This document shows, in pieces, positions 12,660 to 27,933 of a DNA stretch of 34,799 nt. Numbering within the stretch: position 1 is the first letter of the stretch; each line of letters begins with the position of its first letter. The stretch covers positions 1 to 34,799 of the forward strand of contig QHYJ01000066.1 in assembly GCA_003223255.1 (NCBI GenBank), read 5' to 3'. Under the pieces are notes generated by a model, which was given only the letters and a program-made list of their open reading frames with translations, made no database searches and was not told the DNA's origin. The position numbers were made by a program, and so were the translations under genes. This stretch comes from Acidobacteriota bacterium (GTDB lineage: Bacteria > Acidobacteriota > Terriglobia > Acidiferrales > UBA7541).

Positions 12660-13252
12660 CAGGAAAAACCCAAATCCTCGAGTTGCCGGCGAAGCCGCTC
12701 GATGCATCGCTGGCGCGTGAATCCAATCGAACCTACGGCGAGTCCCAACTCCTTAGCAACTTCCGTGTACGGCCGCGCGGGAACTTCATAAAAAAGCAGC
12801 TCCACCAGGCGGCGGCACTGCGGGCTGAGCGCCGCCATCGCTTCACGCAGGATCTGCTCTTCCTGGGTCTGCTGCACGAGATCTTCTGCCATCGCCGGAA
12901 TTCCCGGCTCTGGCAGGTCGTGATCCGAGTCGCGGCTGACCACGCGCTGGCCCTGCCGCTTCCATCGATAGCTTTCGTGGTGCGCCACCTGCATCAGCCA
13001 TTTCGGCAGTGCCCGCGGCTCCCGTAGCTCCGGCAAGCGCATCAGCAGCTCTGTGCACGTTGCCTGAAAAACGTCCGCCGCCTCTTGTGACGAAAGCCCG
13101 TATTTCACGGGGATGGAATAAATCAAGGCCTTGTATTTATCGATGAGCAGCGACCAAGCCTCTTCGTTGCCGGCAAGGCACTCTTTGACCAGGAGCGTGT
13201 CATCCCAAGTGACCGCCTCCTTTTTCCCTGTTTTTGAGCTTGCAGGACTCAT
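12659..13252 (-). CDS. ECF-type RNA polymerase sigma factor
   Basis: The 197-residue protein has sigma region 2 at about residues 20-100 (CLAGNEEAWSLLIDKY, AADVFQATCTELL, LPKWLMQVAHHESYRW) and sigma region 4 at about 133-193 (LREAMAALSPQCRRLVELLF, then a helix-turn-helix around YTEVAKELGLAVGSIGFTRQ). Regions 1 and 3 are absent, as expected for extracytoplasmic-function sigma factors. Its ATG overlaps the stop of the peptide-binding protein (ATGA), and its TGA overlaps the start of the CHAT gene (TGATG). It is therefore translated in step with both. It probably directs transcription of its own cassette, restrained by the zinc-finger protein. The promoter motif it reads cannot be read from one locus. 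Confidence 0.93.
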   Translation of the reverse strand: MSPASSKTGKKEAVTWDDTLLVKECLAGNEEAWSLLIDKYKALIYSIPVKYGLSSQEAADVFQATCTELLMRLPELREPRALPKWLMQVAHHESYRWKRQGQRVVSRDSDHDLPEPGIPAMAEDLVQQTQEEQILREAMAALSPQCRRLVELLFYEVPARPYTEVAKELGLAVGSIGFTRQRCIERLRRQLEDLGFS

Positions 13253-15051: not shown

Positions 15052-15062
15052 AAGCTCCCAAG

Positions 15063-16039
15063 TTACCTCCCTATCTTGGACGGCTCTGCGCGTTGCTGCA
15101 ACACGCTGCCGAGCCCCAAGTATCCCACGAAAAACGGCAGCATAATCACAGAAGATTCCCCCAACTGGGGACCGGCTCAGGAACTCCGAGGCCGAGAAAC
15201 GAGAGGGTCATCTCCGCGAGCACAAACTGCGGCACGAGAATCGCCGCCTGCGTCAGGAGCACACTCGACGTTTCTGGAAGAATGTGGCGCCGCAACAACT
15301 ATCCGTCCGTGGCTCCGAAGCCACGCGCAGCGCGGACGAAGTCCCGCTCCTTGGCGCTCAGAACAACTCCGCGAACCAGCCGCGCCGGGCGCGCCCATCC
15401 TACCATCCCGAGTACCGCAACGATGAGGAAGAAGGCCTGCAGTGGACCAACCGCCAGGGGCAAAAACGCACGAAGCGCAAAAAGCAAGTAGAGCCAAGGC
15501 AAGGCCAAGAAGAGCTCCGCGAGGCGCATGAGCAAGTCATCTCTCCAGCCCCCGTAATAGCCCGCCACCGCACCGACGAACAAGCCAAGGAACAGGGTGA
15601 CGCCAGCCCCCAAGAGGCCGGTAAACAGCGAGATTCGTCCACCATAGAGAAAGCGCGACAATTGGTCGCGTCCAAACGAATCACTACCTAGCAGATAGAT
15701 TCTTTCGTTGTCTGCTCCAAATAGGTGCCACCGACTCGGAACAAGCCCCAGCAACCGATAGTTCGCTCCGAGGACGAAAAACTTCACCGGAAGAAGCCGT
15801 GCCGTATCCTCCTCATACTGGTCGAAAGAGCCTTCGCGCAAGTTCAGGGCGTACGCAAACGGACGCAGGTGAAAATGCCCTTGGCTGTCCACGCAATGAA
15901 GCCGCATCGGAGGCAGGTAGGGGTTCTTGCGCTCCTGTTCTGTCGGATCGTAAGGCGCAAAGAAGCCAGCAAAGATCACTATGGCGTGCAGCGCGACGAG
16001 CAGGACAAGCCATCGCGAGATTGCGTGCCCCGCTCTCAT
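15063..16039 (-). pseudogene. broken ABC peptide permease (DppC-like)
   Basis: Start ATG 16039 overlaps the dppB stop (ATGA). The first 246 residues fit DppC/OppC: an N-terminal membrane helix, GSDSFGRDQLSRFLYGGR, then permease helices and the EAA region RAARGFGATDG. There an in-frame TAG (15301-15299) interrupts. The same frame carries on with LLRRHILPETSS, TLSFLGLGV and PSWGNLL, then ends at TGA 15148-15146. The last helix (LPFFVGYLGLGSVLQQRAE) lies in another frame and stops at TAA 15065-15063, just before the binding-protein gene. So there is one amber codon inside the conserved EAA motif, and an apparent short deletion with frameshift after PSWGNLL. Function is very likely lost, unless the errors are in the assembly. 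Confidence 0.82.
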
Positions 16040-17010
16040 GCATTGCTCTCCGTTCGAATCCGTGGATCGGCCCAGTACAAAAGCAGGTCCGCCAGGAAAT
16101 TCCCGCCAACTAAGAAAAGTGTGGAGAGCAAAACGCCGCCGATCACCACGTAAATATCGCGCGCCAAGATGGCTTCCAGCAGGAATGGCCCGACCCCGGG
16201 CCAACTCATCACCACCTCGACGAGCAGCGACCCGCTCAACAGCGTCCCCATACTGAATCCAAAGAGAGAAATAAGCGGATTGGCAGCCGCAGGCAGCGCG
16301 TACCGATAAAGCAGCGTTCGTCGGGGAATGCCATGTCCTTCCGCGGCCAAAAGAAATGGAGCACCGAGCACTTCCGCCACTGCGGCACGGACATGCTCGA
16401 CGAGCAGGGGCAGAACGGACAGTACGAGCGCGGTAACCGGCAAAGCCATGTGGAAGCCTAAGTCGCGAAGCTTGCCTGCCAACGAGAGGTTTTCGAAATT
16501 CAGCGATACCATGCCTCCGATCGGAAACCGTCCCATTTTCACTGCAATCACCAACAAGCCTAGCGCGAGAGCCAGGTCCGGAATGACGAGCAGCGCCGCT
16601 GTCCCCCACGAAACCAAACGATCGGATAAGCGCCCAAAACGCTCGGCGCTCCAAATACCCAGCGGCAAAGCAATCCCCCAGGCAAGCAGCATCGCCGTTA
16701 CGGTCAAGAGCAGAGTGTTCCGCGCGCGAACCAACAAAAGTGGCGCAACAGGAGTGTTGTAGGCAAATGAAAAGCCCATGTTGCCGTGGAGCACGGAACT
16801 CACCCAATGGACGTAGCGGATGGGCAGCGGCTGATTTAATTCATATTGCGCGCGCAGCGCCGCAATCGTTTCCGGCGTAATCTGCGGGTTGAGGCGCATT
16901 TCGTCGAAATAGTTTCCGGGGGCAAGAACAGTAAACGCGAAGGCAAGCAGGGATACTCCGATGAGCAGGAAAACAGCGTGAACGGATCTCCGCAGCAAAT
17001 AATGCATCAT
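16036..17010 (-). CDS. dppB: ABC peptide importer permease (DppB-like)
   Basis: The 324-residue inner-membrane protein begins MMHYLLRRSVHAVFLLIGVSLL, the classic DppB/OppB first helix. Family marks follow: NPQITPETIAALRAQYELNQPLP shortened here to its PETIAALRAQYELNQP core, then GNMGFSFAYNTPV, and an EAA-type loop around VAEVLGAPFLLAAEGHGIPR. Near the C-terminus come helices around SLLVEVVMSWPGVGPFLLEA. It forms half of the membrane channel with DppC. Both ends overlap neighbours by four bases (ATGA at 17010 and at 16039). The gene shows no lesion. Because dppC and dppD are broken, the complex may no longer assemble. Confidence 0.92.
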   Translation of the reverse strand: MMHYLLRRSVHAVFLLIGVSLLAFAFTVLAPGNYFDEMRLNPQITPETIAALRAQYELNQPLPIRYVHWVSSVLHGNMGFSFAYNTPVAPLLLVRARNTLLLTVTAMLLAWGIALPLGIWSAERFGRLSDRLVSWGTAALLVIPDLALALGLLVIAVKMGRFPIGGMVSLNFENLSLAGKLRDLGFHMALPVTALVLSVLPLLVEHVRAAVAEVLGAPFLLAAEGHGIPRRTLLYRYALPAAANPLISLFGFSMGTLLSGSLLVEVVMSWPGVGPFLLEAILARDIYVVIGGVLLSTLFLVGGNFLADLLLYWADPRIRTESNA

Positions 17011-17840
17011 GATTCCGCCATCCCAGGCCGCGAGAAATTCAGGCGTGGCACCGCCGCTAAAAGTTCGCGGGTGACCCTGCTTTCCGGCTCTTTCAGAATT
17101 TTGTCAGGCGGTCCCTGTTCGACAATCTGCCCGCGGCTCATCACTGCAATCTCGTCTGCTAAATGCGCGGCCATGGCCAGATCGTGTGAGATGAACAGAC
17201 AGGTCATGCCAAGCGAGTCTTGCAATTCCAGCAAAAGATTTGCGATTTGTGCTTGCACGGAACAATCGAGAGCCGACAGCGCTTCGTCGAGAATGAGCAG
17301 CTTCGGCTCAAGGGTTAGCGCTCGAGCAATCGCCAACCGCTGCCGCTGTCCGCCGCTTAGCTCCGCCGGGATTCTTCCTTCCATTTCCGGAGAAAGCCCA
17401 ACTTGTTCGAGTAAGACATGCGCCCTGGCTCGCATTTCGTCGCGCCTGACGTTTCCCTGCAGGGCCAAAGGTTCGGTCAGGATCTCCAGCATAGTCCAAC
17501 TTGCATGGAAAGAGTTTACGGGATCTTGAAAAATAAGCTGGATCTGTCGACGGATTCTTCGATACTCCTTTTCGGTAAGCTGCGTGATGTCCGTTTCCTC
17601 GAACCAGATGCTTCCTGACGTGGCTTTTTCCAAGCAGGCAAGGCAGAGCGCCAGCGTGCTCTTTCCTGAGCCCGATTGACCCACAATCGCGAGTGTGGTC
17701 CCTTTAAGAATGGAAAAAGAGACACCATCGAGCGCCCGCACCTCTGCGCCCGGGCCCGCGAGCTTTTTCTTCGAATAGCGCTTCACCAGGTTTTCCACCC
17801 TGACGACTGGCCGCGCGGTTTTTTCGCTCCTGGCAGTCAT
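17007..17840 (-). CDS. ABC peptide importer ATPase (DppF/OppF-like)
   Basis: The 277-residue ATPase starts at ATG 17840, which overlaps the dppD stop (ATGA), and ends in an ATGA overlap with dppB. Longer starts upstream lie inside dppD. Motifs are complete: Walker A GQSGSGKST, Q-loop LIFQDPVNSF, signature LSGGQRQRLAIARAL, Walker B LLILDEALSALD and switch His in FISHDLA. It normally pairs with DppD to hydrolyse ATP during uptake. The oligopeptide C-terminal region is short, so it may be DppF-type lacking the extended tail. The gene looks intact. Confidence 0.92.
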   Translation of the reverse strand: MTARSEKTARPVVRVENLVKRYSKKKLAGPGAEVRALDGVSFSILKGTTLAIVGQSGSGKSTLALCLACLEKATSGSIWFEETDITQLTEKEYRRIRRQIQLIFQDPVNSFHASWTMLEILTEPLALQGNVRRDEMRARAHVLLEQVGLSPEMEGRIPAELSGGQRQRLAIARALTLEPKLLILDEALSALDCSVQAQIANLLLELQDSLGMTCLFISHDLAMAAHLADEIAVMSRGQIVEQGPPDKILKEPESRVTRELLAAVPRLNFSRPGMAES

Positions 17841-18786
17841 TCCTGGCCTTCGTACCGGAAGCAAGAAACTACGTGCGCCTCGCTCAATTTCACCAATCCA
17901 GGCTCCTGAGATTTGCAAACATCCATCCGCTCCGGGCACCTGGGTTCGAAGGGACAGCCTTCCCGGGGCAGCGAGGAAGCAAGCGAATCTCCCGGAATCG
18001 CGGCCAATTTTTTCTTGTGAGCGCTGTGCGTCTCGCTGAGAAACGGCGGAATCGCTTGGAAAAGGGACCGCGTGTAAGGATGCCTTGGCGAAGCCAACAC
18101 TTTCTCTGCCGGCCCTAATTCCACAATTCGTCCGGCATATAAAACCAAAACGCGGTCGGCAAATCCCCCCAGCAACGCCGGATTGTGTGTGATGAAGATC
18201 ATGGCAAGGCCAAGATTTTTTCGCAGCGTTCGAAAGACTCCCAAAATCTCCATTTGCGTCGTGGGATCGAGCGAGGCCGTGGGCTCGTCCGCAATCACCA
18301 CGGAGGGCCCACAGGCAATCGCTTGTGCAATGAGAATGCGCTGGCGCTGTCCTCCGCTGAGTTGATGCGGATAGGAGCGCGCGATGCGCTCTGCTTCCTC
18401 CGCAAGAAAAAGCATTTTACGCCATGCGCGGCCAATACCTGGCGAACCTGCCGGCCTGTTCGCATGGTCGGGTGAAGCGCAACCGAAGGCTCCTGAAAAA
18501 TCAAGGAAATGCACTTGCCACGGATTTTCTCAAGCTCTTCAAGCTTCGCTTGAAGAAGGTTCCTTCCCTCCAATAAGACTTCTCCGGATACAGCGACAGC
18601 ATTCGCGTGGAAGAGTCCCAAAAGCGATGTGGCCAGCGTGCTTTTCCCCGATCCGGATTCCCCGAGGACACCCATTACCTCGCCGGGCTCCAGATGAAAA
18701 CTGACTCCGTCGAGCGCCCGGTGGCTACCGCCCTTGGGTGGGTGATAGGTGACTCGGAGATCCCGAACTTCCAGAATGGCCCCCAT
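17837..18786 (-). pseudogene. frameshifted ABC peptide importer ATPase (DppD-like)
   Basis: Starting at ATG 18786, one frame encodes Walker A (GESGSGKST) and the Q-loop region (LIFQEPSVALHP) as far as VLAAHG near 18427. The remainder continues in a second frame from about 18420: AEEAERIARSYPHQ, signature LSGGQRQRILIAQAIA, Walker B VVIADEPTASLD, switch His in FITHNPA and the oligopeptide-binding C-terminal CPFEPRCPER. About ten residues normally found between the two halves are missing, so an apparent deletion of roughly 30 bases plus a frame change separates Walker A from the signature. Each half alone cannot bind and hydrolyse ATP normally. It is the first gene of the importer run. Confidence 0.82.
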
Positions 18787-19396
18787 GCACCGCATGTTGA
18801 AGCAGGATGGCGGAGGGGACAAGACAAACCTGCTCATCCGCTAACCACAGGTAATTCTTTGCGGCTGACTCGCAGGCTTCGGAAACGCCTCAGGGAGGCA
18901 TTTCCACCTGAGAATCGAAGCTCTACGGCGCACAAGCCCAAGCGAGTTGGGAATTACCATCTTCATAAGACCTTCGCACGTCTGACTTCGAGACGCCGTT
19001 GATTCCTTGCCAGGGTGACGGTTTCTATCACTTTCGAATAATCGGGCAAATGCCCGAGGCGCATTATGTGGTCTTTACCCGAGTATTGCTATAACCTCAT
19101 TCACTCCCTTTAGTGTTGTACAGGAGATCTAAATAGCTGTATTTGAAGGAGATAGTTCTGCCTAAACAGACAAAGTGCATTACAGACTTTAGCTGTTTCA
19201 AGCTGAGATGGGTTAGGGCTGGGGTTCAGCGCTATCCATATTCGGTACAAAATTAGGGTCTTTACCTGAGGGGCTTTCAGGGGTTTACTTGCTTGAGGTC
19301 ACCTAGGTTCCGATGATATTAGCCTATCCTGTTTTCTGCGCCAGCGGGGGTGTGAGCCGCCAGGTCCCTTGCGCTTCAGACGAGGAGAATAATCTT
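18787..19396. other. divergent non-coding region between importer and stressosome operons
   Basis: This gap of about 610 bases lies between two divergent operons, so it should hold promoters for both. No gene with recognisable homology is visible. Short hairpins occur at 19043-19056 (CGGGCA-AA-TGCCCG) and 18889-18912 (CTCAGG and CCTGAG). A possible sigma70-type promoter for rsbR is listed separately. Otherwise I see nothing definite. Confidence 0.5.
19293..19322 (+). promoter_or_regulatory. possible sigma70-type promoter for the rsb operon
   Basis: TTGAGG (19293-19298) and TATTAG (19317-19322) are separated by 18 bases, 75 bases before the rsbR ATG. The match is moderate, and in this base composition such pairs occur by chance. 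Confidence 0.25.
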
Positions 19397-20251
19397 ATGG
19401 TCAAGCGAGATGAATCGTCCGAGCTGCTTCGTGAACTGGTGGCACACCTCCGCCAGAACAGAACGCAACTCCGCGAGGAATGGGTCGGCCGCATTTCTGA
19501 AACGCGACTGCTCACGGCCATGACCAAAGAAGAGATCTTCGCAGAAGCTACTTCCGTGTACGACAGCTACGTCGAAGCTCTCGAGACGGAAACCTTCGAA
19601 GCGCTGCAGGCTTACGCACGCAATCTCTCGGAACGCATCATTCCGCGCGGCGTCGAAACGCACGAAGTCGTGGGAATCGTCCTCCTCCTGCGCGACGTCC
19701 TGGCGCGCTCCCTCTTCGCGAAGTACCAGACGGATTTCAAGAAGCTGAACGGCATCCTGGACGCCTACGAGCCCGCCGCGAACCGCATCGCCAACACCGT
19801 GGCCGTCGGTTTCGTCCAGGAACGCGAGCGCGTCATTCGCCAGCAGCAGGAAGCCATCCGCGAACTCTCTACGCCGGTCTTGCAGGTGCGCGAGCGCCTG
19901 CTGATTCTGCCCATCATCGGCGTGATCGATCCCCAACGCGCACGACAGTTGACCGAGCAGTTGCTCCGCGGGATCCGCACCAATCGCGCCAAGGTGGTGG
20001 TCATCGATATCACCGGCGTGGCCGCGATGGACGTTACCGTCGCCAACCACTTGGTGCAAACGGTAGAAGCTTCGCGGTTGCTCGGCGCCACTGTCATCGT
20101 CACTGGCCTGTCTCCGGAGATTGCTCAGACTCTGGTAACCATCGGCGTCGACCTCGGCAAGATGAACACGGTCGGCGACCTGCAGGGCGGCATCGAGCAG
20201 GCTGAGCGGCTCCTGGGTTACAAAGTCATGGCGTTGGCGGAGACGAGCTGA
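19397..20251 (+). CDS. rsbR: stressosome scaffold protein RsbR (RsbRD-type N-terminus plus STAS)
   Basis: The 284-residue protein has an all-helical N-terminal domain (residues about 1-150) matching the RsbRD N-terminal type. A coiled linker (ERERVIRQQQEAIRELSTPV) and a C-terminal STAS domain (about 165-280: LILPIIGVID, VVVIDITGVAAMDV, GATVIVTGLSP) follow. RsbR and RsbS build the stressosome, which holds RsbT until stress. The STAS loop includes a Thr that may be phosphorylated by RsbT. ATG 19397 follows AGGAGA with good spacing. Longer upstream starts have no ribosome site. It is the first gene of a tightly packed operon. Confidence 0.93.
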   Translation: MVKRDESSELLRELVAHLRQNRTQLREEWVGRISETRLLTAMTKEEIFAEATSVYDSYVEALETETFEALQAYARNLSERIIPRGVETHEVVGIVLLLRDVLARSLFAKYQTDFKKLNGILDAYEPAANRIANTVAVGFVQERERVIRQQQEAIRELSTPVLQVRERLLILPIIGVIDPQRARQLTEQLLRGIRTNRAKVVVIDITGVAAMDVTVANHLVQTVEASRLLGATVIVTGLSPEIAQTLVTIGVDLGKMNTVGDLQGGIEQAERLLGYKVMALAETS

Positions 20252-20278
20252 GCAGATTAGCCAAGGGAAAAGGGCAAC

Positions 20279-20641
20279 GTGGAAGTTCCTATTCTCAAGC
20301 AGGGGCAGGTCCTGATCGCAACGTTTCAGGCTGCTCTCTCTGACGCAGACCTCAATCAACTGCGTAGCGCCCTTGTGCAACAAGTCGTCAGATTCCGCTC
20401 GCGCGCCGTCATCGTGGATGTGACGGCAATGGATGTGATGGACTCGTTTGCCTCACGAACGTTGCGTGAGATTGCTCACATGATCCGCTTGCGCGGTGCG
20501 GAAACCGTCATCGTTGGAATCCAGCCGGAAGTCGCCTTTGCGATGGTGCAGCTCGGCTTAACCTTGGAAGGTGTTGCCACGGCTCTCGACTTGGAAGAGG
20601 GCCTGGCTTATTTGAATCAGAAATTCAAGATCATGAAGTGA
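20279..20641 (+). CDS. rsbS: stressosome STAS protein RsbS
   Basis: The 120-residue single STAS domain starts at GTG 20279, four bases after an AAAAGGG ribosome site. It contains VIVDVTAMDVMDSFASR, whose Ser in the DSFASR loop is the RsbT phosphorylation site of the family. RsbS holds RsbT in the stressosome and lets it go once phosphorylated. It lies 27 bases after rsbR and 12 bases before rsbT. No transmembrane or extra domain is present. Confidence 0.94.
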   Translation: MEVPILKQGQVLIATFQAALSDADLNQLRSALVQQVVRFRSRAVIVDVTAMDVMDSFASRTLREIAHMIRLRGAETVIVGIQPEVAFAMVQLGLTLEGVATALDLEEGLAYLNQKFKIMK

Positions 20642-20653
20642 GAGTGAGCTTCC

Positions 20654-21058
20654 GTGTCCCGCGTGGAAATCCGGGTGACCATTAGTTCTGACCAGGACAT
20701 TGTCTTAGCTCGACAGAAAGGACGGTCCTTAGCACTGGAACTCGGTTTTTCCTCAGGCGATGCCACCCTCATTGCCACCGCCATCTCAGAACTTGCGCGA
20801 AACATCGTATCTTACGCCGGCAACGGCCAGATCCTCTTGAGAGACATCCAAAACAGCACTCGGGTTGGCATCTCCGTCACGGCTTCTGACGATGGTCCAG
20901 GCATTCCCAACATTAGCCAAGCCTTGCGAGACGGCTTTTCGACTTCAGGGAGTCTGGGATTGGGATTGCCCGGAGTGCGCCGCTTGATGGACGAGTTCGA
21001 GATAAATTCCAAACCTGGCCAGGGAACCAAAGTCGGGGTGAAAAAGTGGAGACCATAA
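20654..21058 (+). CDS. rsbT: serine kinase and switch protein RsbT
   Basis: The 134-residue GHKL-type kinase starts at GTG 20654. It shows the N box ELARNIVSYAG, the G1 box DDGPGI and the G2 region LGLGLPGVRRLMDEF, all needed for ATP binding. RsbT phosphorylates RsbR/RsbS and, when released, activates its downstream partner by binding an N-terminal helical domain (RsbU in Bacillus). No rsbU phosphatase or sigma-B gene follows here, which matters for the histidine kinase two genes downstream. The 3' end overlaps rsbX by 13 bases. Confidence 0.94.
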   Translation: MSRVEIRVTISSDQDIVLARQKGRSLALELGFSSGDATLIATAISELARNIVSYAGNGQILLRDIQNSTRVGISVTASDDGPGIPNISQALRDGFSTSGSLGLGLPGVRRLMDEFEINSKPGQGTKVGVKKWRP

Positions 21059-21663
21059 AAAGCCTGATGGCCGAGTACGGTGTGGCAAAGTTAGCTCTCC
21101 CGGGCGAAGGGGAGTCCGGGGATCACTACCTAGTGTGCTGCAATCAGGGCAGCATCCTGGCTGCGGCCATCGATGGGATCGGTCACGGAGCTGAGGCCGC
21201 CAGTGCGGCCAAGGCGGCAACAGCCGCCCTGAGGAACGGCATCGGCGAGCCCATCATCCGCCTGGTGGCAGCGTGCCACGAGAAACTGCGATCAACACGC
21301 GGGGTTGTCTTGAGCCTCGCTTCCATTGACGTAAAACATGGTCTCATGACTTGGCTCGGCGTGGGGAATGTACACGGCGTGTTGGTGCGTGCCAACAACA
21401 AGAAGGGCGCGGCACAGGAAACCCTCATGCTGCGTGGGGGCGTCGTTGGTGACCATTTGCCACAGTTGCAGGCCGCAGTGCTTCCGGTGGGGCAGGGCGA
21501 CCTGCTCGTTTTCGCCACCGATGGCATTCGCCCGGATTTCCCCGCAGGTCTTTCGGCTCTTGAGAATCCGCAAAGAGCCGCAGACAGAATTTTGAAAGGC
21601 TTTGGCAATGGAAGTGATGACGCCCTGGTCCTGGCCCTGCGGATTACGGGAATTCAGTCATGA
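21046..21663 (+). CDS. rsbX: RsbX-like PP2C serine phosphatase
   Basis: The 205-residue protein has a SpoIIE/PP2C-type fold with AAAIDGIGHG near residue 40, GVGNVHG, VFATDGI and a C-terminal DDALVLALR. The Asp residues typical of metal binding are present. RsbX removes phosphate from RsbR and RsbS, resetting the stressosome. The start is GTG 21046 inside the last codons of rsbT, so translation is probably coupled. Its TGA overlaps the start of the histidine kinase (ATGA). Confidence 0.92.
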   Translation: METIKSLMAEYGVAKLALPGEGESGDHYLVCCNQGSILAAAIDGIGHGAEAASAAKAATAALRNGIGEPIIRLVAACHEKLRSTRGVVLSLASIDVKHGLMTWLGVGNVHGVLVRANNKKGAAQETLMLRGGVVGDHLPQLQAAVLPVGQGDLLVFATDGIRPDFPAGLSALENPQRAADRILKGFGNGSDDALVLALRITGIQS

Positions 21664-22637
21664 AGACAGAAGTGGGACAAAAAAAGGGACAGCGAACGGA
21701 CCTGGAAGCCGAGTACGCCGCTGCCTTGCGTGAATACGCAACGGGGGGAGGCGAAGCGGTGCTGGGCCGAGCCTACGAACTTGGCCGCCGCGCGATTGCG
21801 GAACGCAAAAGCCTCCTGGAACTGGTCTCGCTTCACCACAAGACTCTGAAGGAATTGTTTCAGAATTCGGTCGACAGGAGATCCCCAGGACACTTGGTCC
21901 AAGCGAGCTGTGATTTCTTTTCGGAGTGCGTTTCTCCTTACGAGATGGCCCAGCGGGGATTTCAAGACGCCGTGAAGGCCCTGCGCCAGCTGAATGAAAC
22001 ACTCGAAGAAGAAATCAAACGTATCGCTTACTCGGTCCACGATGAAGCCGGACAATTGTTGGTGGCCGTGCACCTGGCTCTGGCGAATCTCGGCCAGGAA
22101 CTGCCGCAGGGAAAGCAATCGCAAATCGCCGAAATCGAGGGCTTGCTTACCGAAGTCGAAAAGCATTTGCGCCGCTATTCCCATGAACTTCGCCCCACCA
22201 TCCTTGACGATCTGGGCTGGATTCCTGCCATTCGTTTCCTGGCCGAAGGAGTTTCCAAGCGCTCGAATCTGCAGATCCACATCGAGGCAAAGATTTCCGG
22301 CCGGCTGCCAAGCACCATCGAAACCGCCCTCTATCGCGTGGTGCAAGAGGCATTGACCAATGCCGTCAAGCACGCTAAGGCCAAGAGTGTCTGGATTCGC
22401 GCCTGGATTAAGGATCAGGTGCTGCATTGCTCGATCCGGGATGATGGCACGGGTTTTGATGCCCAGGCCGTTCAAGCGGGCACCGGGCGCAAGGGATTGG
22501 GGTTAATTGCGATGCGCGAGCGTTTGAGCGCCATCGGCGGAACCCTTTGGATTGAATCATCGCAGAAACGTGGTACCGAACTACTAATCAGACTTCCCAG
22601 GGAGGGCGATAATGTCAATTCGAGTAGTGCTCGCTGA
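21660..22637 (+). CDS. histidine kinase with RsbU-like N-terminal domain
   Basis: The 325-residue soluble kinase has three parts. Residues about 15-100 are helical and resemble the N-terminal RsbT-binding domain of RsbU, with the motif AIAERKSLLELVSLHHKTLK corresponding to the RsbU helix ending IHRKVLKEL. Residues about 110-190 form a HisKA_3 dimerisation domain with the likely phospho-His127 in AYSVHDEAGQL. Residues about 220-320 form the ATPase domain (VVQEALTNAVKHA, DDGTGFD, KGLGLIAMRERL). There is no sensor or membrane segment. It overlaps rsbX by four bases and the response regulator by 26. The inferred role is that RsbT freed from the stressosome switches on this kinase, which phosphorylates the adjacent regulator. 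Confidence 0.9.
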   Translation: MKTEVGQKKGQRTDLEAEYAAALREYATGGGEAVLGRAYELGRRAIAERKSLLELVSLHHKTLKELFQNSVDRRSPGHLVQASCDFFSECVSPYEMAQRGFQDAVKALRQLNETLEEEIKRIAYSVHDEAGQLLVAVHLALANLGQELPQGKQSQIAEIEGLLTEVEKHLRRYSHELRPTILDDLGWIPAIRFLAEGVSKRSNLQIHIEAKISGRLPSTIETALYRVVQEALTNAVKHAKAKSVWIRAWIKDQVLHCSIRDDGTGFDAQAVQAGTGRKGLGLIAMRERLSAIGGTLWIESSQKRGTELLIRLPREGDNVNSSSAR

Positions 22638-23244
22638 CGATCATGTCTTGGTGCGGCAGGGCCTCAAATCCCTGCTCGAACGGGAAAACTTTCAGGTAAT
22701 TGCAGAAGCCTCCGATGGCCAGGAAGCGGTTCGTTATTCGGAGTCGCTGCATCCGGACATCGCCGTCGTGGACATCAGCATGCCGACTCTGAACGGCATC
22801 GACGCCATCCGCGAGATGGGCCGGTGCTCCCCAAAGACGAAAACCATTCTGCTCACGCAACATGAAGAAGATCAGTACATCCGAGAAGCTTTGGAAGCCG
22901 GCGTGAGGGGATACGTCCTGAAAAGTCAGGCGGCGAACGATCTGGTTCACGCCATTCAGCAAGTCTCGCGCGGCCAATTCTATTTGAGTCCGGGCGTTTC
23001 GAAGGCTGTCGTTGAAGCCTATCGCACGAAATCGCAAATGCCCGTGGATCCCCTGACCGTTCGTGAGCGCCAAGTGCTGCAACTGATTGCCGAGGGCAGG
23101 TCCACGAAGGATGTGGCTTCGCTTCTGGGGATCAGCGTGAAAACCGCCGAGTCGCATCGCACAAGGCTCATGCAAAAACTAGACATTCATGAAACCGCCA
23201 GCCTGGTGCGCTACGCTGTGCGTCGCGGCTTAGTCCAACCGTAA
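22612..23244 (+). CDS. LuxR/NarL-type response regulator
   Basis: The 210-residue regulator has a receiver domain with acidic pocket DD (9-10), phospho-acceptor Asp54 (AVVDISMP) and Lys in YVLKSQA. A LuxR-type helix-turn-helix (LTVRERQVLQLIAEG, LLGISVKTAESHRTRL) follows at about residues 145-205. It overlaps the kinase by 26 bases and is almost certainly its partner. It is probably the transcriptional output of the stressosome operon. It is close to identical in layout to the second regulator at 24759. Confidence 0.95.
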   Translation: MSIRVVLADDHVLVRQGLKSLLERENFQVIAEASDGQEAVRYSESLHPDIAVVDISMPTLNGIDAIREMGRCSPKTKTILLTQHEEDQYIREALEAGVRGYVLKSQAANDLVHAIQQVSRGQFYLSPGVSKAVVEAYRTKSQMPVDPLTVRERQVLQLIAEGRSTKDVASLLGISVKTAESHRTRLMQKLDIHETASLVRYAVRRGLVQP

Positions 23245-23269: not shown

Positions 23270-24472
23270 TTACCAGCAGCCGTTTCTGCGCAGCTTTTGC
23301 AATTGCCGCCGAGCTTCGCGGCTCCCATTCTTAACGGCGGCTCGCAGAAGGATTCTTGCCTGCTCGCAATTTCGGGCAACGCCCTCGCCCTTCAAGTAAA
23401 GCCGCGCTAAATCCACTTCCGCTGACGAGTCACCGGCTCCAACTGCGGACCAGAGGCGCATCACCTCCGCGCTTCTATCTTGTGTGGGAGCACGGCCGTA
23501 GGACGGCTCTCGGGCGGTTTCTCTTGGGCGAGGGATTGCCGGGCCTGCAGCTGGCGCGCTATCCTGGGCGTAAGCATTAGGCGGGGCGGAATTTTCCTGC
23601 GACTCTTGCGGAGGCGCGTTTGGTATTGGTTTCGCTGCGGCCGGCGTCTGTGCCGGTACTTGAGCCGAACCCTGCGGCGGAGTAGAGCTCTCAGGCTGCA
23701 AATCCCGCTTTCCGCTGAGTTTCTCGCCTAAACGTATTAGCGCATTCCCGACCTTCGGCCGCAATTTCTCAAAAAGCCCAAAATTCTCGAAGAGCACAAC
23801 AGGCGCCAGCACAATCACACCCATGAGAAACCCCGTCGCAACGCTGCGCACGAATCCGCCAGTCCTTCGAGAATCTTGAGACGGCCCACTCGCATGCGGC
23901 GAAAAAAGGGGAGGCACAACGGAAGCAAAGGGTGACCCGACCGGCCGTTGCTCTTCCCGAGCCGCAAGGCGGGGTGGCTGTGCCACCGTCGGCGATGCTT
24001 TCTTCACTTCCTGCGGGTGGCTGTTCCTGCTAGGCGTAACGCACGCTTCTTCTACCGCCCAGGCCGGCAGCGGGTACTCTCGATTGTGGCGGGAGCCTTC
24101 TGATTCGCCGGGCTGCTTAAGCCAGTTACGAATTCGGTTACCGCCATCAGCGCTCGGCGCCGTGAAACGCAAGCCTCCGGCTTTTTTTGACTTGTCCGTC
24201 CATACTACGTCGCCGTTCAGCTCGATCCGCTCCGCTGGATGGGGAGAGATACAAATTCGCCGGGGGCCCAATTGGTGAACTGCGACGGCCGATTGGAATC
24301 CAAGCCCCTTTTCCGAAGCATCGACTACGATTCCGCCGCTTCCCGCCTCAAACTCGAAGTAGGAAATCCCTCCTGGCCTCTTTCTCTCGACACTGCGACG
24401 TTCGGTCCCCACGGCCGTTTGTGCCGTCAGCGAATTTGGCCAGCTTTTCGGTTGAATTGGTTTCGGCTCCAC
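23270..24472 (-). CDS. PilZ-like membrane protein with C-terminal Sel1 repeat
   Basis: The 400-residue protein begins at GTG 24472 and runs convergently towards the response regulator, with only 25 bases between stops. Residues about 23-110 form a PilZ-like domain (ERRSVERKRPGG, VVDASEKGLGF) of the c-di-GMP-binding kind. A single hydrophobic helix lies at about 207-228 (VATGFLMGVIVLAPVVLF). A low-complexity Pro/Ala/Gln-rich stretch at about 250-335 precedes a Sel1-like repeat at about 335-395 (AEVDLARLYLKGEGVARN). The topology suggests a cytosolic nucleotide sensor and a periplasmic protein-binding end. The canonical RxxxR is only partly matched, so ligand binding is uncertain. Confidence 0.82.
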   Translation of the reverse strand: MEPKPIQPKSWPNSLTAQTAVGTERRSVERKRPGGISYFEFEAGSGGIVVDASEKGLGFQSAVAVHQLGPRRICISPHPAERIELNGDVVWTDKSKKAGGLRFTAPSADGGNRIRNWLKQPGESEGSRHNREYPLPAWAVEEACVTPSRNSHPQEVKKASPTVAQPPRLAAREEQRPVGSPFASVVPPLFSPHASGPSQDSRRTGGFVRSVATGFLMGVIVLAPVVLFENFGLFEKLRPKVGNALIRLGEKLSGKRDLQPESSTPPQGSAQVPAQTPAAAKPIPNAPPQESQENSAPPNAYAQDSAPAAGPAIPRPRETAREPSYGRAPTQDRSAEVMRLWSAVGAGDSSAEVDLARLYLKGEGVARNCEQARILLRAAVKNGSREARRQLQKLRRNGCW

Positions 24473-24758: not shown

Positions 24759-25391
24759 ATGCCCACTCGTGTCTTGCTTGCGGATGATCATGCGTTGGTC
24801 CGTCAGGGTCTAAAGGCCTTGTTGGAGAAGCAGGGCATCCAAGTAGTTACGGAGGCTTCTGACGGACAGGAAGCCGTACGTCTGGCCGAAAAGGCCCAGC
24901 CTGAGGTGGCTATTCTGGACATTACCATGCCGCTTTTGAACGGCGTCGATGCCGCCCGCGAGTTGATGAAGTCCACGCCGAAGACCAAGGTGATTCTTCT
25001 TACCCAACATGACGAGGACCAATATGTGACCGAGGCCCTTCGCGCGGGCGTAAAGGGGTATGTACTAAAGAGCCAAGCTGCCGAGGATTTAGTCCATGCT
25101 ATACGAGAAGTCTGCAAGGGATCCGTTTATCTGAGCCCGAGCATATCGCGAGCCGTCGTCGACGCATACCTGTCAAAAACCTACGTGTCACCGGATCCTC
25201 TCTCTACGCGCGAGCGCCAAGTCCTTCAACTGGTCGGCGAAGGCAAGTCCACCAAGGACATCGCCCTGCAACTGGGCATCAGTGTAAAAACCGCCGAGTC
25301 GCACCGAGCCAGACTCATGCGTAAGCTGGACATTCACGAAACTGCCAGTCTGGTTCGCTATGCCATCCGGCGCGGGTTAATCCAAGCTTAA
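24759..25391 (+). CDS. second LuxR/NarL-type response regulator
   Basis: The 210-residue regulator has receiver Asp54 (AILDITMP), conserved DD and Lys residues, and a C-terminal helix-turn-helix (STRERQVLQLVGEG, LGISVKTAESHRARL). It matches the regulator at 22612 along its length, at roughly 70% identity by eye, so the two are paralogues. Its start is set at ATG 24759 by alignment with that paralogue; the GTG at 24696 would add 21 unmatched residues. No kinase is adjacent, so it may be fed by the stressosome kinase or another one. The 286-base gap upstream is shared with the divergent PilZ-Sel1 gene and should hold both promoters. Confidence 0.92.
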   Translation: MPTRVLLADDHALVRQGLKALLEKQGIQVVTEASDGQEAVRLAEKAQPEVAILDITMPLLNGVDAARELMKSTPKTKVILLTQHDEDQYVTEALRAGVKGYVLKSQAAEDLVHAIREVCKGSVYLSPSISRAVVDAYLSKTYVSPDPLSTRERQVLQLVGEGKSTKDIALQLGISVKTAESHRARLMRKLDIHETASLVRYAIRRGLIQA

Positions 25392-25648
25392 CCTCCTGCG
25401 AAATCAACCATTTCGTCCCCGCTTCGCTCAATCATTCTCCTAGGGGCGTTTCGGTGATTCACCGGATTGTTTTAAAAAGCCAAGAAGCTATCGTGCACTC
25501 AGGAGGGGGGCTGCCTCCGAGTTCAGGGCCCCGCCTGAAACACCCCAACATCCCTTTGCCCTGGAAGGGAGGCGGCCCATCCCAAATTCGTTGGGAGGAT
25601 GCGGTTAAGTCAGGAGAGTTCGAATTAGGAGTAAGAGCCGGGGAGACC

Positions 25649-26509
25649 ATGCCCTTAGAGCGAGACAAACCCAGCAGGGGCTCACAGACTCACTGGGGAG
25701 TACAGCAGGCCGCCAGCAAGCTGAAAGATTTTGCCAAGCTGATCGTCCCGATTGACTCCAAGAGCGCCTTTCATTTTGCAGACAGGAGACGGCGCTCGCG
25801 CGGACCGGACGAGACTCTCGATAACGTATTTCACGGCATGCTGCGCGAGGCCAATCGGGAACTGGCCAGGCTGCTTAAGGACGTACACGCGGGGTCTGAC
25901 ACCGCACTGCGCAATGGAGCTGCAAGCAACGCCACTCGCGACCTTCTTCTTCGTGCCCTTCAGTGTGCGACCAAGCAATACATGGTGCAAGCCGAACTCA
26001 GCAATCTGGCGCTGAAGGACGAACTCACAGGCCTGTACAATCGCCGTGGATTTTTAGTCTTGGCAGACCGCCAGCTAAAACTCGCACGTCGCTACGGCCG
26101 CAGCCTGCTTCTGTTTTTCCTGGATGTCGATGGCCTGAAGGAGATTAACGACACGCTGGGTCATACCGAGGGCGATGCGGCTTTGAAGCGCATGGCCGAG
26201 GCTTTGGAGAGCACTTTTCGTGACTCGGACCTCACCGCTCGGTTAGGAGGCGACGAGTTTGCCGCTCTGGCCATCGAAGCCTCCGGCAACAATGAAGTCT
26301 CGATCCGCGCTCGCTTGACCGAGTATCTGAATTTGGCAAGCCACAAGGACTCTTTCAAGTTTTCTGTCAGTTTGGGAACCGCAAGGTTTGATCCTTTGAA
26401 ACCCTCTTCGATTCGAGAACTAATCGCTCAAGCGGATCACGCCATGTACGACCAAAAGCGGTGCCGTTGCTTACCGCGGCTCACAAACGCGGTTTGTTAT
26501 CAATCCTAG
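25649..26509 (+). CDS. GGDEF-domain diguanylate cyclase
   Basis: The 286-residue protein has a helical N-terminal region of about 110 residues and then a GGDEF domain. The A-site reads GGDEF exactly (ARLGGDEFAAL), and RDSD five residues before it is the inhibitory I-site for product c-di-GMP. Other marks are DELTGLYNRRGF and DVDGLKEINDTLGH. It therefore looks active and feedback-controlled. ATG 25649 with GGGGAG four bases upstream is preferred to the GTG at 25454, whose extra 65 residues are low in order. The upstream stretch holds two short hairpins (25502-25518 and 25522-25539). The C-terminal tail after DQKR is short and odd. It may supply c-di-GMP for the two PilZ proteins around it. Confidence 0.92.
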   Translation: MPLERDKPSRGSQTHWGVQQAASKLKDFAKLIVPIDSKSAFHFADRRRRSRGPDETLDNVFHGMLREANRELARLLKDVHAGSDTALRNGAASNATRDLLLRALQCATKQYMVQAELSNLALKDELTGLYNRRGFLVLADRQLKLARRYGRSLLLFFLDVDGLKEINDTLGHTEGDAALKRMAEALESTFRDSDLTARLGGDEFAALAIEASGNNEVSIRARLTEYLNLASHKDSFKFSVSLGTARFDPLKPSSIRELIAQADHAMYDQKRCRCLPRLTNAVCYQS

Positions 26510-26636
26510 ATAGGACGGGAGCTTGCAGTTTATGTTTAAAAGAGGCAGCTTGGCGCGCAAGGCAGATTTTACAAATTCATTACATCTCCTGCCTTTATAA
26601 GATAGAGCAGAATTCGATTGAAAGGTCGAAACACTC

Positions 26637-26954
26637 ATGGCAGTGCGGTCCGGTCGACTCGAAAAGCGCGTCCAGCTGTCCTTACCTGTGCAGATCTCTA
26701 GCCTGTATGATCCCGCCACGGCGGAGCGCAGCACCACCGAGAATGTGTGCTCCCTGGGAATGCGCGTCGTTACGCAAAAAGCCAAACAGTTGAACGAGCG
26801 GTTGATGATTAGTTCCTCGGTGGGGAACCTGCGAGCTATGGCTCGCGTTGTTTACTGCCAACGGCTCCCGGATGGGCGCTTTGGCGTCGGGATTCAGTTT
26901 CAGGGACAGTCGGTCAACTGGACAACCGGATCGCTCGCCGGCGCGAGCGATTAA
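26637..26954 (+). CDS. small single-domain PilZ protein
   Basis: The 105-residue protein has the layout of a stand-alone PilZ domain: an RxxxR-type lead (RSGRLEKRVQLSLPVQ), then ENVCSLGMRVVT in place of the usual D/NxSxxG loop, and a beta-rich end (GRFGVGIQF). PilZ proteins bind cyclic di-GMP and adjust motility or polysaccharide export. The start is ATG 26637 with GAAAGG about ten bases before it. It follows the cyclase by 127 bases. The loop is not a perfect consensus, so binding may be weak. Confidence 0.85.
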   Translation: MAVRSGRLEKRVQLSLPVQISSLYDPATAERSTTENVCSLGMRVVTQKAKQLNERLMISSSVGNLRAMARVVYCQRLPDGRFGVGIQFQGQSVNWTTGSLAGASD

Positions 26955-27081
26955 GGCACGGCACACCGGAACCCGCCGGAACCGTGTCGCTTTTGCCTGC
27001 GTAAAACAGTGTGACATGGGTCCTGGAAAGATTCCTCGAAGGGACCGTGGACCAGCCACTGTTTCAAAGAACGGCCTTCGA

Positions 27082-27933
27082 ATGAGTCGCACGACAGTGA
27101 TCCTGCTTTTTCTTGCCCTGCTGCTTCTTGCCGTCGGCCTGCACAACCAGATCGGTAGGGCCTTCCCTGCTGGGATTTTTCGCGCCAAAACTTCCCAACC
27201 TTCCGGCACAGCTTCTTCCCCGCCGCTAGGCAGGGTTCTCTGGTCCGCGGACATGGAAACCGGCGATCTCTCGCAGTGGAGTGTTCCCGATGCCCCGGGC
27301 GGTCGCAACCAGGGGGGAGGCGTCTTCAACAGCGGCTTTGCGACCGCCAGCGTGGACACGGTCAGCTTCGCCCACAGCGGCCTTCATGCGGCCAAACTCT
27401 TTGTGAATGCGCTCGACACCGGCGACTTGCCCACCAGCGGGACCCGCTTATTCCGCTGGCTGGAGCCGGAAAGATATTCGGAACTCTATTACCGTGTCTG
27501 GTTCTACTTCCCCCAGCGCTACACTCCAAATGGCAATCCTCCCTGGTGGAACATCTCTCAGTGGAAATCCAAGCGCGCTTCGACGAACGACCCCTTCCTC
27601 GCCTTGAATGTCGGCAATCGCCCGGACGGAGCCATGTATTTCTACCTGTACGACAAGAACGCCAGCCACTCCCATGGCCAATCCATCAAAAACATTCCCG
27701 AAGGTCAGTGGTTTGAGGTCGAGGCCTACTACCAATGCTCAGGGGAAAAGAATGGGCACGTCACTTTCTGGCAGGACGGCGTCCAGATCCTGGACGTTTC
27801 CAATATGCAGACCCGCTATCCCGATGGCAACTGCGCTTGGAGCGTCAACAACTATTCCACCAGCCTGAATCCCAATCCCGCGACCATTTACGTCGACGAT
27901 GCCGCCATCTGTCTTGGCGGTCGCTGCCCGTAA
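27082..27933 (+). CDS. secreted polysaccharide-lyase-like protein
   Basis: The 283-residue protein has an N-terminal hydrophobic segment (VILLFLALLLLAVGL) acting as signal or anchor. A beta-rich jelly-roll type domain follows, with DMETGDLSQWS near residue 55, YYRVWFYFPQRY, PPWWNISQWKS, IPEGQWFEVEAYYQ and VDDAAICLGG near the end. These features fit concanavalin-like polysaccharide lyases or carbohydrate-binding proteins (heparin-lyase-I-like). The start is ATG 27082; upstream in-frame sequence overlaps the PilZ gene and has no signal character. Substrate unknown; neighbours suggest exopolysaccharide handling. Confidence 0.72.
   Translation: MSRTTVILLFLALLLLAVGLHNQIGRAFPAGIFRAKTSQPSGTASSPPLGRVLWSADMETGDLSQWSVPDAPGGRNQGGGVFNSGFATASVDTVSFAHSGLHAAKLFVNALDTGDLPTSGTRLFRWLEPERYSELYYRVWFYFPQRYTPNGNPPWWNISQWKSKRASTNDPFLALNVGNRPDGAMYFYLYDKNASHSHGQSIKNIPEGQWFEVEAYYQCSGEKNGHVTFWQDGVQILDVSNMQTRYPDGNCAWSVNNYSTSLNPNPATIYVDDAAICLGGRCP

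Follow-up and report, generated by a model that had tools for sequence, protein, structure and literature searches.

The window, i.e., the whole stretch of 34,799 nucleotides of acidobacterial DNA analysed, contains closely spaced genes for the stressosome proteins RsbR, RsbS, RsbT and RsbX, for a histidine kinase (HK) and for a NarL-type response regulator (RR1), all located within positions 19397 to 23244, where the first-pass annotation had placed them (Table 1). From rsbR to RR1, consecutive genes are separated by 27, 12, −13, −4 and −26 nt. The gene set that defines an RsbRST module is thus present in one operon: a sensor protein with a STAS domain (RsbR), a STAS protein (RsbS) and a GHKL ATPase (RsbT). 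In RsbR, the Pfam scores are 24.8 bits for RsbRD_N (cut-off 24.3) and 56.6 bits for STAS. An alternative rsbR start at position 19313 is possible, but the start at 19397 is favoured because four close relatives (L027, L028, L031 and L046) encode proteins of 284 amino acids. RsbT is presumed to be the messenger to HK and RsbX the feedback phosphatase. Scans for promoters and terminators in this region returned site numbers no higher than about the shuffled mean.

Table 1. Features of the stressosome locus and its downstream neighbours (positions in the window).
Feature	Position	Strand	Description and basis
rsbR	19397..20251	+	Sensor subunit; RsbRD_N-like sensor domain and STAS domain (Pfam)
rsbS	20279..20641	+	Scaffold subunit; STAS 54.6 bits, E = 1e-14
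rsbT	20654..21058	+	GHKL switch kinase/ATPase; HATPase_c E = 5e-12
rsbX	21046..21663	+	SpoIIE/PP2C-type phosphatase; SpoIIE 43.2 bits
HK	21660..22637	+	RsbU_N-HisKA_3 histidine kinase, 325 aa, phospho-acceptor His127; Pfam, 30-kinase alignment A1
RsbU_N domain of HK (residues 18-97)	21711..21950	+	Pfam, profile search, model
HK linker residues 109-112	21984..21995	+	Conservation, profile HMM alignment to RsbU
RR1	22612..23244	+	NarL/LuxR-type response regulator; Response_reg 100.7 bits, GerE 63.1 bits
RR2	24759..25391	+	A further NarL-type regulator with 69% identity to RR1
GGDEF	25454..26509	+	Diguanylate cyclase; GGDEF motif and RxxD I-site present
PilZ	26637..26954	+	PilZ-domain protein adjoining the GGDEF gene; 22.5 bits, at cut-off

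Pfam divides HK into RsbU_N (residues 18–97), HisKA_3 (120–181) and HATPase_c (221–315). RsbU_N is the only input domain detected, and the SpoIIE/PP2C catalytic domain is absent from the chain, the two kinase domains standing in its place. The first-pass annotation had likened the first ~100 residues of the kinase to RsbU and had named a missing RsbU_N match, together with a missing predicted RsbT interface, as the observation that would speak against it. HK matches the RsbU_N profile (PF08673) with 45.1 bits and E = 1.1e-11, well above the curated cut-off of 25.5 bits, and residues 1–124 alone score 47.9 bits. Conversely, a profile of 30 aligned kinases retrieves the RsbU N-domain structures 2j70, 2j6z, 1w53 and 2j6y from the PDB (E = 4.4e-8 to 8.3e-7), and the single further match has E = 0.9. 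A mere chance resemblance is contradicted by both results, i.e., by the PDB matches and by a Pfam score that exceeds the cut-off by about 20 bits, and is hardly conceivable, even though the fold search with the N-domain alone gave no specific best match. For this search the N-domain was modelled separately, because the matches of the whole-kinase model lay mainly in the kinase core (residues 109–316). The model of residues 1–127 (pLDDT 88.9) contains helices at 14–27, 32–47, 52–69 and 76–126 and matches RsbU (2j6y_D) with Z 6.1, rmsd 4.6 and 26% identity over 70 aligned residues; this match is outscored by other helical bundles, namely the C-domain of KaiA, helices of corrinoid proteins and the N-domains of RsbR. 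A non-specific ranking of this kind can occur with a small helical bundle. Since the fold search is not decisive, the family assignment is based on sequence.

RsbU_N of HK is presumed to serve as both the RsbT-docking and the dimerisation domain. Within it, E32, Y39, G42, R43 and E89 are invariant in the 30 aligned kinases. The alignments (A1 and A2) exclude a near copy of another locus (L040, copy of L039) and a locus cut by the contig end (L044), and two further loci whose PF08673 scores do not exceed the cut-off and in which RsbT is absent nearby (L080 and L081) were kept outside the kinase alignments. Five residues of B. subtilis RsbU have been implicated in RsbT binding. E24 corresponds to E32 of HK and is kept in 30/30 kinases and R91 can be matched only with an alignment gap, while three are not kept: the Y28 position is occupied by G, Q, S, R, E, H or M, the I74 position mostly by A or S, and the I78 position by S in 28/30 kinases.

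The kinase core of HK scores 29.2 bits against HisKA_3 (cut-off 24). H127, N234, D261, G263, G265 and G279-L280-G281, which make up the phospho-acceptor histidine, the N box and the D-x-G-x-G and G-L-G motifs of HisKA_3 kinases, are invariant in 30/30 kinases. The core resembles DesK and VraS, whose chains lead both the sequence and the structure searches of the PDB. In the AlphaFold model of the whole protein (mean pLDDT 77.5), a single predicted helix spans residues 76–147, and the spacing of 38 residues between E89 and His127, constant in all 30 kinases, fits this one helix. Two residues of the helix, R109 and N112, are also invariant in 30/30 RsbU_N-HisKA_3 kinases. The profile HMM aligns them with R91 and Q94 of RsbU by means of a four-residue gap, whereas without the gap R91 and Q94 match V105 and L108. 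As a control, 35 HisKA_3 loci located away from RsbU_N kinases were inspected; 31 contain the searched His motif, and four (L104, L106, L120 and L130) were dropped because the pattern was not matched. None of the 31 has an arginine at His-18 or an asparagine at His-15, and R109/N112 was rejected as a general HisKA_3 motif. In 26 of these controls, which look like one orthologue family, His-18 is a histidine and His-15 an alanine, so that the control represents about six independent families. HK thus shares the DHp and catalytic domains with DesK/VraS-type kinases but differs from them in its RsbU_N input domain and in R109/N112.

RsbT was compared with its B. subtilis counterpart, in which the relevant residues are R19, R23, N24 and D92. 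Equivalents of R19, R23 and D92 are present in the protein encoded here and that of N24 is absent; across the 51 rows compared, R19 is kept in 49, R23 in 48 and N24 in 2. Of the 30 kinase loci, seven (L067, L069, L071, L074, L076, L077 and L079) have no D92 equivalent in RsbT while their kinases retain R109, so that an R91–D92 bridge is not conserved in these loci. Compensation between D92 of RsbT and R109 of the kinase was looked for and not found.

The genomic context argues in the same direction as the domain assignment. Within its genome, HK is the sole RsbU_N match found, the 13 SpoIIE-domain places (rsbX included) all lie on proteins other than this one, and none of the 13 matches to the SigB/F/G sigma factor model TIGR02980 exceeds the cut-off in this 97% complete assembly; among 14 control genomes, one exceeds it. 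Of 36 genomes of the genus, 23 carry RsbT, and exactly these 23 carry RsbU_N. The other 13 are without a strong RsbT or RsbU_N match, and some of these absences may be assembly gaps, since in two of the genomes (G015 and G017) fragments of rsbR lie on or close to a contig end. Each of these four observations strengthens the reading that the stressosome has been rewired to a two-component system. In the larger set of 43 loci, which includes L080 and L081, 41 have RsbT encoded ahead of the RsbU_N gene and 39 have the full RSTX set; 19 loci of named Acidobacteria, many of them on the same contigs, were not pooled with the 43. The RsbU_N proteins downstream of RsbT belong to several output types. 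Outputs of acidobacterial stressosome loci also include a sigma-54 one.

RsbU_N might instead serve in dimerisation only, with the kinase and the stressosome sharing an operon and working separately. Consistent with this, RsbU_N is the least conserved of eight segments compared (median identity 52% in the genus, L044 excluded) and has lost three of the five implicated RsbU residues. The strict co-occurrence of RsbT and RsbU_N, the position of RsbT ahead of RsbU_N proteins with different outputs, and the invariance of E32, R109 and N112 render this explanation quite unlikely. Instead, RsbU_N on HK, the co-occurrence with RsbT and the lack of a SigB/F/G match over the cut-off in the genome favour the rewiring that the first-pass annotation had proposed. 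The genes are thus read as a complete RsbRSTX stressosome whose output would be a two-component system reached through docking of RsbT on RsbU_N of HK, with a probability of roughly 0.63. Domains, gene order, conservation and co-occurrence are the part of this reading that sequence comparison carries.

In the proposed mechanism, stress perceived by the sensor domain of RsbR would cause RsbT to phosphorylate RsbR and RsbS and to leave the complex, as is established in Bacillus and assumed here. Free RsbT would then dock on the dimeric RsbU_N of HK and on the helix predicted to continue into the DHp helix, and the ensuing change in the coiled coil would lead HK to phosphorylate RR1 and, possibly, RR2, which is similar to it. 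Both would alter transcription, with the linked GGDEF cyclase as likely effector or target, while RsbX would reset the stressosome. We infer that RsbT would bind and activate HK, rather than inhibit it, that phosphotransfer would extend to both regulators and that c-di-GMP would be affected.

RsbT could also act as a brake that shifts HisKA_3 to the phosphatase state, so that stress turns the regulators off. The present evidence is compatible with either sign of the RsbT effect on HK, and the titles of solved DesK complexes name both phosphotransfer and phosphatase states of this match of the kinase core. RsbT activates RsbU, however, and in Moorella thermoacetica it is reported to control the RsbU_N-GAF-GGDEF protein MtG (cited in the available parts of PMC12143880 and PMC4976288); a precedent for inhibition by RsbT was not found in the accessible portions of the stressosome literature, which makes a brake rather unlikely. 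A further alternative, RsbT-dependent phosphorylation in place of stable docking as the means of control over the kinase, is quite unlikely. Excerpts of PMC9237108 propose such phosphorylation for outputs that lack RsbU_N, VvD1 among them, and in Moorella the RsbT homologue acts by phosphorylation according to an excerpt of PMC4976288. For RsbU, however, excerpts of PMC12143880 favour activation through binding at the N-domain and linker, and HK carries this very domain. Docking on RsbU_N and the linker is therefore preferred.

Excerpts of Baral 2025 (PMC12143880) and Heinz 2022 (PMC9237108) describe RsbU_N on kinases and other downstream signalling proteins of proteobacterial stressosome operons, and the former models an NreB-type RsbU_N kinase (MBI3545564.1). 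The idea that RsbT addresses a kinase is thus already published for Proteobacteria, and the acidobacterial locus is a well-supported further example. Both groups share an RsbU_N-HK fusion beside rsbT and other stressosome genes, with the fusion as proposed RsbT target; the present locus differs in belonging to Acidobacteriota, in its non-globin, RsbRD-type sensor and in the linked second regulator and GGDEF gene. This difference is small, because a gammaproteobacterial locus (L101) also has the order RSTX-HK-RR-GGDEF. Nor is the gene order rsbRSTX a novelty, since the accessible text of PMC9237108 reports species with a globin-type RsbR in which RsbX comes directly behind RST. Compared with the B. 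subtilis RsbRST-RsbU-SigB pathway, the homologues of RsbR, RsbS, RsbT and RsbX and the RsbU_N domain are retained, whereas here rsbX comes after rsbT, a kinase takes the place of the phosphatase as output, and the genome and residue differences described above apply. Moorella MtG resembles the present system in that RsbT is reported to control a non-phosphatase RsbU_N output with a link to c-di-GMP, but there RsbU_N is located on the cyclase itself, while here the kinase carries it and the cyclase is encoded separately by a linked gene. In Vibrio vulnificus, RSTX is followed by the two-component system VvD1-VvD2, thought to affect c-di-GMP according to the available part of PMC10014275; in contrast to HK, VvD1 has no detected RsbU_N, and the Vibrio RsbR is treated as a globin-coupled sensor in excerpts of PMC9237108. 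In the portions of the stressosome literature available to us, we found no description of the acidobacterial module, of its linkage to a second regulator or one GGDEF clade, of a sigma-54 output, of a near-invariant RsbR sensor or of its fusion to another kinase.

RR1 and RR2 both contain a receiver domain and a GerE helix-turn-helix, which identifies them as NarL-type. RR2 has no adjoining kinase gene and is found in 12 of the 23 genus loci, and a full RR1 is missing in two, L041 (only a 30-bit match after the kinase) and L044 (ending at the contig edge). A GGDEF gene of the stressosome-linked clade is present in 19 of the 23 loci; in a tree with 14 of the genome's 15 further GGDEF places (the partial match C356 being omitted), this clade has a support of 100/100. 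The PilZ gene occurs in 17 of the 23 loci, but its linkage is weaker evidence because PilZ genes are common in the genome, with 49 PilZ places, among which the gene beside GGDEF is not counted.

Across 21 genus loci (L044 excluded), the median identity of RsbR is 96.6% for the sensor, which is unusually conserved, and 100% for the STAS domain. The near-invariant sensor domain is also fused to a second kinase in the same genome.

A wider reading is tentative and probably goes too far: the stressosome would be the input of a branched two-component/c-di-GMP circuit, in which RsbT switches the R109/N112 linker (the counterpart of R91/Q94 of RsbU), with two regulators and a dedicated cyclase downstream; the same sensor on the second kinase would provide a direct route beside the buffered one, and RsbRSTX would persist throughout the phylum with exchangeable outputs, a sigma-54 activator being the extreme case. 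How one RsbT drives phosphatases, cyclases and kinases via the same N-terminal domain is a question raised in the accessible part of Baral 2025 (PMC12143880). With only 325 amino acids and no other Pfam input domain, HK makes the docking-and-linker model directly testable, and the operon offers a lead to the stressosome role in bacteria without a recognised SigB.

Among nine loci around RsbT from a plasmid collection, the RsbU_N profile matches three (Lysinibacillus L109 and L110, and Listeria L112) and misses six; L110 is likely a copy of L109.

The gene set reported by the first-pass annotation, rsbR-rsbS-rsbT-rsbX followed by a histidine kinase and a response regulator (RR1), is present on the + strand of the window at 19397-23244, as judged by open reading frames and Pfam (table below). 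The genes overlap or nearly do so, as had been described, with successive gaps of 27, 12, -13, -4 and -26 nt. The kinase N-terminus, likened earlier to RsbU, matches Pfam RsbU_N at E = 1.1e-11 (45.1 bits; the curated cut-off is 25.5). A profile built from residues 1-127 of 30 relatives retrieved the RsbU N-domain chains 2j70, 2j6z, 1w53 and 2j6y from the PDB (E 4.4e-8 to 8.3e-7), and beyond these four a single further match at E = 0.9. Four helices are predicted for the N-domain (AlphaFold, pLDDT 88.9). Its structural comparison with RsbU 2j6y_D (Z 6.1, rmsd 4.6, 70 residues, 26% identity) is non-specific, other helical bundles scoring higher, and membership in RsbU_N therefore rests on sequence. 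The comparison of the kinase core is specific (VraS 4gt8, Z 20.2; DesK entries, Z 15-17). In the full kinase model (AlphaFold, mean pLDDT 77.5, pTM 0.46), a single helix spans residues 76-147 and passes through the phospho-acceptor His127, which is separated from E89 by 38 residues in 30/30 aligned kinases.

Features of the operon and of linked or related genes
Feature	Location	Strand	Domains or remarks
rsbR	window 19397-20251	+	RsbRD_N, STAS
rsbS		+	STAS
rsbT		+	HATPase_c
rsbX		+	SpoIIE
Histidine kinase		+	RsbU_N, HisKA_3, HATPase_c
RR1, response regulator		+	Response_reg, GerE
RR2, NarL-type regulator	window 24759-25391		69% identity with RR1 across 209 residues; no own kinase
Sensor-HisKA_3 fusion kinase	L105:976-2175 (G000:C258, window's own genome)		adjacent NarL-type regulator in L193:5747-6451

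The genome (6.66 Mb, 428 contigs, 97.3% complete) contains no RsbU_N match other than this kinase. SpoIIE domains occur at 13 places, rsbX included, none of them on an RsbU_N protein, and a SigB/F/G sigma factor model gave 13 matches, none above its cut-off, which the same model exceeded in 1 of 14 control genomes. As far as these models see, the genome seems to encode no RsbU phosphatase on which RsbT could act. Metagenome bins of Acidobacteria make up 19 of the 21 named relatives, and 11 of these bins carry the label gp2; depth labels in cm suggest a soil habitat.

RsbU_N was found in 26 of 61 genomes, among them 23 of the 36 from the genus. A phylum-wide sample of 396 genomes showed it in 15 (14 above cut-off), the window's own genome being included in both sets. 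Strong RsbT matches (at least 178 bits) occur in the identical 23 genus genomes, and in two of the remaining 13, fragments of rsbR lie at a contig end or close to one. Altogether 43 loci were read: the window, 25 from the 61-genome set, 15 from the phylum sample and two from other phyla. In 41 of them, rsbT precedes the RsbU_N gene on its strand, usually with rsbX in between, and the RSTX set is complete in 39. The exceptions are L080 and L081, with weak RsbU_N scores and no RsbT nearby, and L068 and L069, where RsbT is present and other Rsb genes were not found. Of the 23 genus loci, 21 show a good match to RR1; in L041 the match reaches just 30 bits, and L044 stops at the contig edge. Homology and co-occurrence support the predicted docking of RsbT on the kinase, and the earlier interpretation of a stressosome rewired to a two-component system is likewise supported. 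The L080 kinase (L080:5902-6927, G150:C42), which is accompanied by a regulator, has its RsbU_N match at or just under the cut-off and no RsbT within the fetched stretch; it is possibly a degenerating or orphan target. In G021, a second RsbT-RsbX pair is found (L162:3396-4585, G021:C8), while the one RsbU_N match detected in that genome is at the main locus. A plasmid record labelled Stenotrophomonas rhizophila (L110, CP065518.1) resembles a Lysinibacillus plasmid (L109) in its rsbT-rsbU layout, the match scores of the two being almost equal, and is possibly mislabelled or contaminated.

Baral 2025 (PMC12143880) implicates four B. subtilis RsbU residues (E24, Y28, I74 and I78) in RsbT binding and three RsbT residues (R19, R23 and N24) in RsbU binding, all of them buried in the predicted interface; RsbU R91 is the predicted partner of RsbT D92, with charge-swap support, and RsbU Q94L leads to independence from RsbT. 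The equivalent of E24, E32, is kept in 30/30 kinases, while Y28 (G36 in 19/30), I74 (A or S at position 88 in 22/30) and I78 (S92 in 28/30) are not. The HMM pairs R91 with R109 and Q94 with N112 via a 4-residue gap; ungapped, they would land on V105 and L108. Both R109 and N112 are invariant in the 30 kinases. They do not belong to the general HisKA_3 motif, either residue standing at its position in 0/31 control kinases, although 26 of these controls resemble one orthologue family. Of eight RsbU_N proteins that have a different output, four carry R109 at equal spacing (L033, L047, L072 and L075) and four do not (L042, L068, L073 and L102); L078 has the shorter spacing of B. subtilis. In RsbT, by B. 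subtilis numbering, R19 is kept in 49/51 rows, R23 in 48/51, D92 in 42/51 and N24 in 2/51, the rows being 50 locus rows plus the window and including one two-copy locus and some plasmid loci without RsbU_N. In 7/30 loci the Asp equivalent to D92 is absent yet R109 is kept, which counts against a conserved salt bridge.

In Bacillus, stress read by RsbR frees RsbT. At this locus, stress sensed by RsbR would likewise release RsbT, which would dock on the RsbU_N dimer and the adjoining helix of the kinase; the helix would transmit the change to the DHp domain, and the kinase would phosphorylate RR1. The probability of this mechanism is put at about 0.6. An activating sign is suggested by the analogous cases of RsbU and the cyclase of Moorella; equal docking with the opposite sign, RsbT inhibiting the kinase, is unlikely. 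Control of the kinase via phosphorylation by RsbT, the mechanism given for Moorella in PMC4976288, is slightly less probable still.

Heinz 2022 (PMC9237108) describes RSTX modules of some Proteobacteria whose downstream signalling proteins bear RsbU_N, as well as phosphorelay outputs, and Baral 2025 describes histidine kinases with RsbU_N in stressosome operons, one of them modelled. An RsbU_N kinase with a stressosome is thus of a known kind, and this operon is a further example. A text search for 'Acidobacter' in the main texts of both papers returned nothing, and titles and abstract openings of the papers listed by full-text searches on stressosomes yielded no report of an acidobacterial RsbU_N-kinase stressosome. 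As an object for testing how RsbT couples to a kinase, the operon is small and clean, and it is surrounded by a wider and less expected pattern of a fixed sensor, swapped outputs, a linked cyclase and a direct sensor-kinase fusion.

The outputs of the 41 RsbT loci are a HisKA_3-type kinase directly joined to RsbU_N in 32 (the 30 aligned kinases, L040 and L044; L069 is counted here though Pfam alone gave no HisKA_3), a PAS-GAF-HisKA kinase in three, a PAS-HisKA_3 kinase in two, and, in one each, a HisKA kinase, a PAS protein truncated at the contig end (L068), a GAF-sigma-54 activator (L078) and, in Mycobacterium colombiense, a PAS-SpoIIE phosphatase (L102). Such interchangeable outputs behind a single input module agree with the toolkit idea published in PMC12143880. 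At L078:4068-5909, in a different family of Acidobacteriota, an RsbU_N-GAF-sigma-54 activator-Fis protein follows a protoglobin stressosome that has two copies of RsbT, a single instance suggesting that RsbT may control sigma-54 transcription; no report of such an output was found among titles and abstract openings of the papers listed by the full-text searches.

Compared with the window, 21 genus loci have median identities of 96.6% for the sensor domain of RsbR, 100% for RsbR STAS, 92.5% for RsbS, 73.9% for RsbT, 68.3% for RsbX, 52.3% for RsbU_N, 70.1% for the kinase core and 83.3% for the regulator. Against the gammaproteobacterial locus L101, the RsbR sensor is 88%, RsbR STAS 97% and RsbT 55% identical; the outlier is L078, whose protoglobin RsbR has an unrelated sensor domain (6%). 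Since identity at the four-fold synonymous sites of rsbR is just 40-61% in the 19 loci tested, this conservation appears to reflect purifying selection rather than recent transfer. PMC4976288 describes the sensing domain at the N-terminus of RsbR as variable, whereas here the sensor is among the most constrained parts. The same genome encodes a HisKA_3 kinase of 399 aa that shares 68% identity with the RsbR sensor in its residues 21-167 (147 aa), and this fusion also occurs in three other genus genomes (G012, G018 and G025). Because the sensor domain is also fused to a HisKA_3 kinase, it would feed both the stressosome and, directly, a kinase.

RR1 and RR2 share a nearly identical alpha-1 helix and KSQAA loop, and RR2 is linked in 12/23 genus loci. 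Branching to two regulators may recur across families, as L067 and L071, from another family, also hold tandem regulator pairs. In the window, RR2 is accompanied by a GGDEF and a PilZ gene in the downstream stretch 24759-26954. Among the 23 genus loci, 19 have a linked GGDEF gene and 17 a linked PilZ gene; of the four loci without GGDEF, the contig ends early in L027 and L044 and the gene is absent in L037 and L043. With 16 GGDEF places in the genome, the linked one included, about 0.03 per 12 kb would be expected by chance arithmetic, the loci sharing descent and not being independent samples. Stronger evidence of linkage is that the linked GGDEFs group in a single clade (20 rows, support 100/100; tree midpoint-rooted for drawing only), which covers both downstream and divergent upstream arrangements, the GGDEF and PilZ genes lying divergently upstream of rsbR in five relatives (L030, L032, L035, L041 and L050). 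Outside the clade fall 14 of the genome's 15 other GGDEF places (the 15th is not in the tree) and two bystanders; the L101 GGDEF falls inside on a long branch, its placement being unsure. PilZ linkage counts for less: the 49 PilZ places given by the genome search do not include the linked one, whose Pfam score lies at the cut-off.

Divergent from rsbR, genes resembling an oligopeptide ABC transporter, named by reading and not by Pfam, occupy 13249-18837 (-) of the window; among the 23 genus loci, the fetched stretches have such genes next to the operon in the window and in its five close relatives L027, L028, L031, L034 and L046. Between RR1 and RR2, a PilZ plus Sel1-like protein (23270-24472, -) is kept in several genus loci. 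The linked PilZ gene is followed by a polysaccharide lyase family ORF (26848-27933; PF14099, 44.8 bits), which is listed from a TTG start that overlaps PilZ and probably lies too far upstream.
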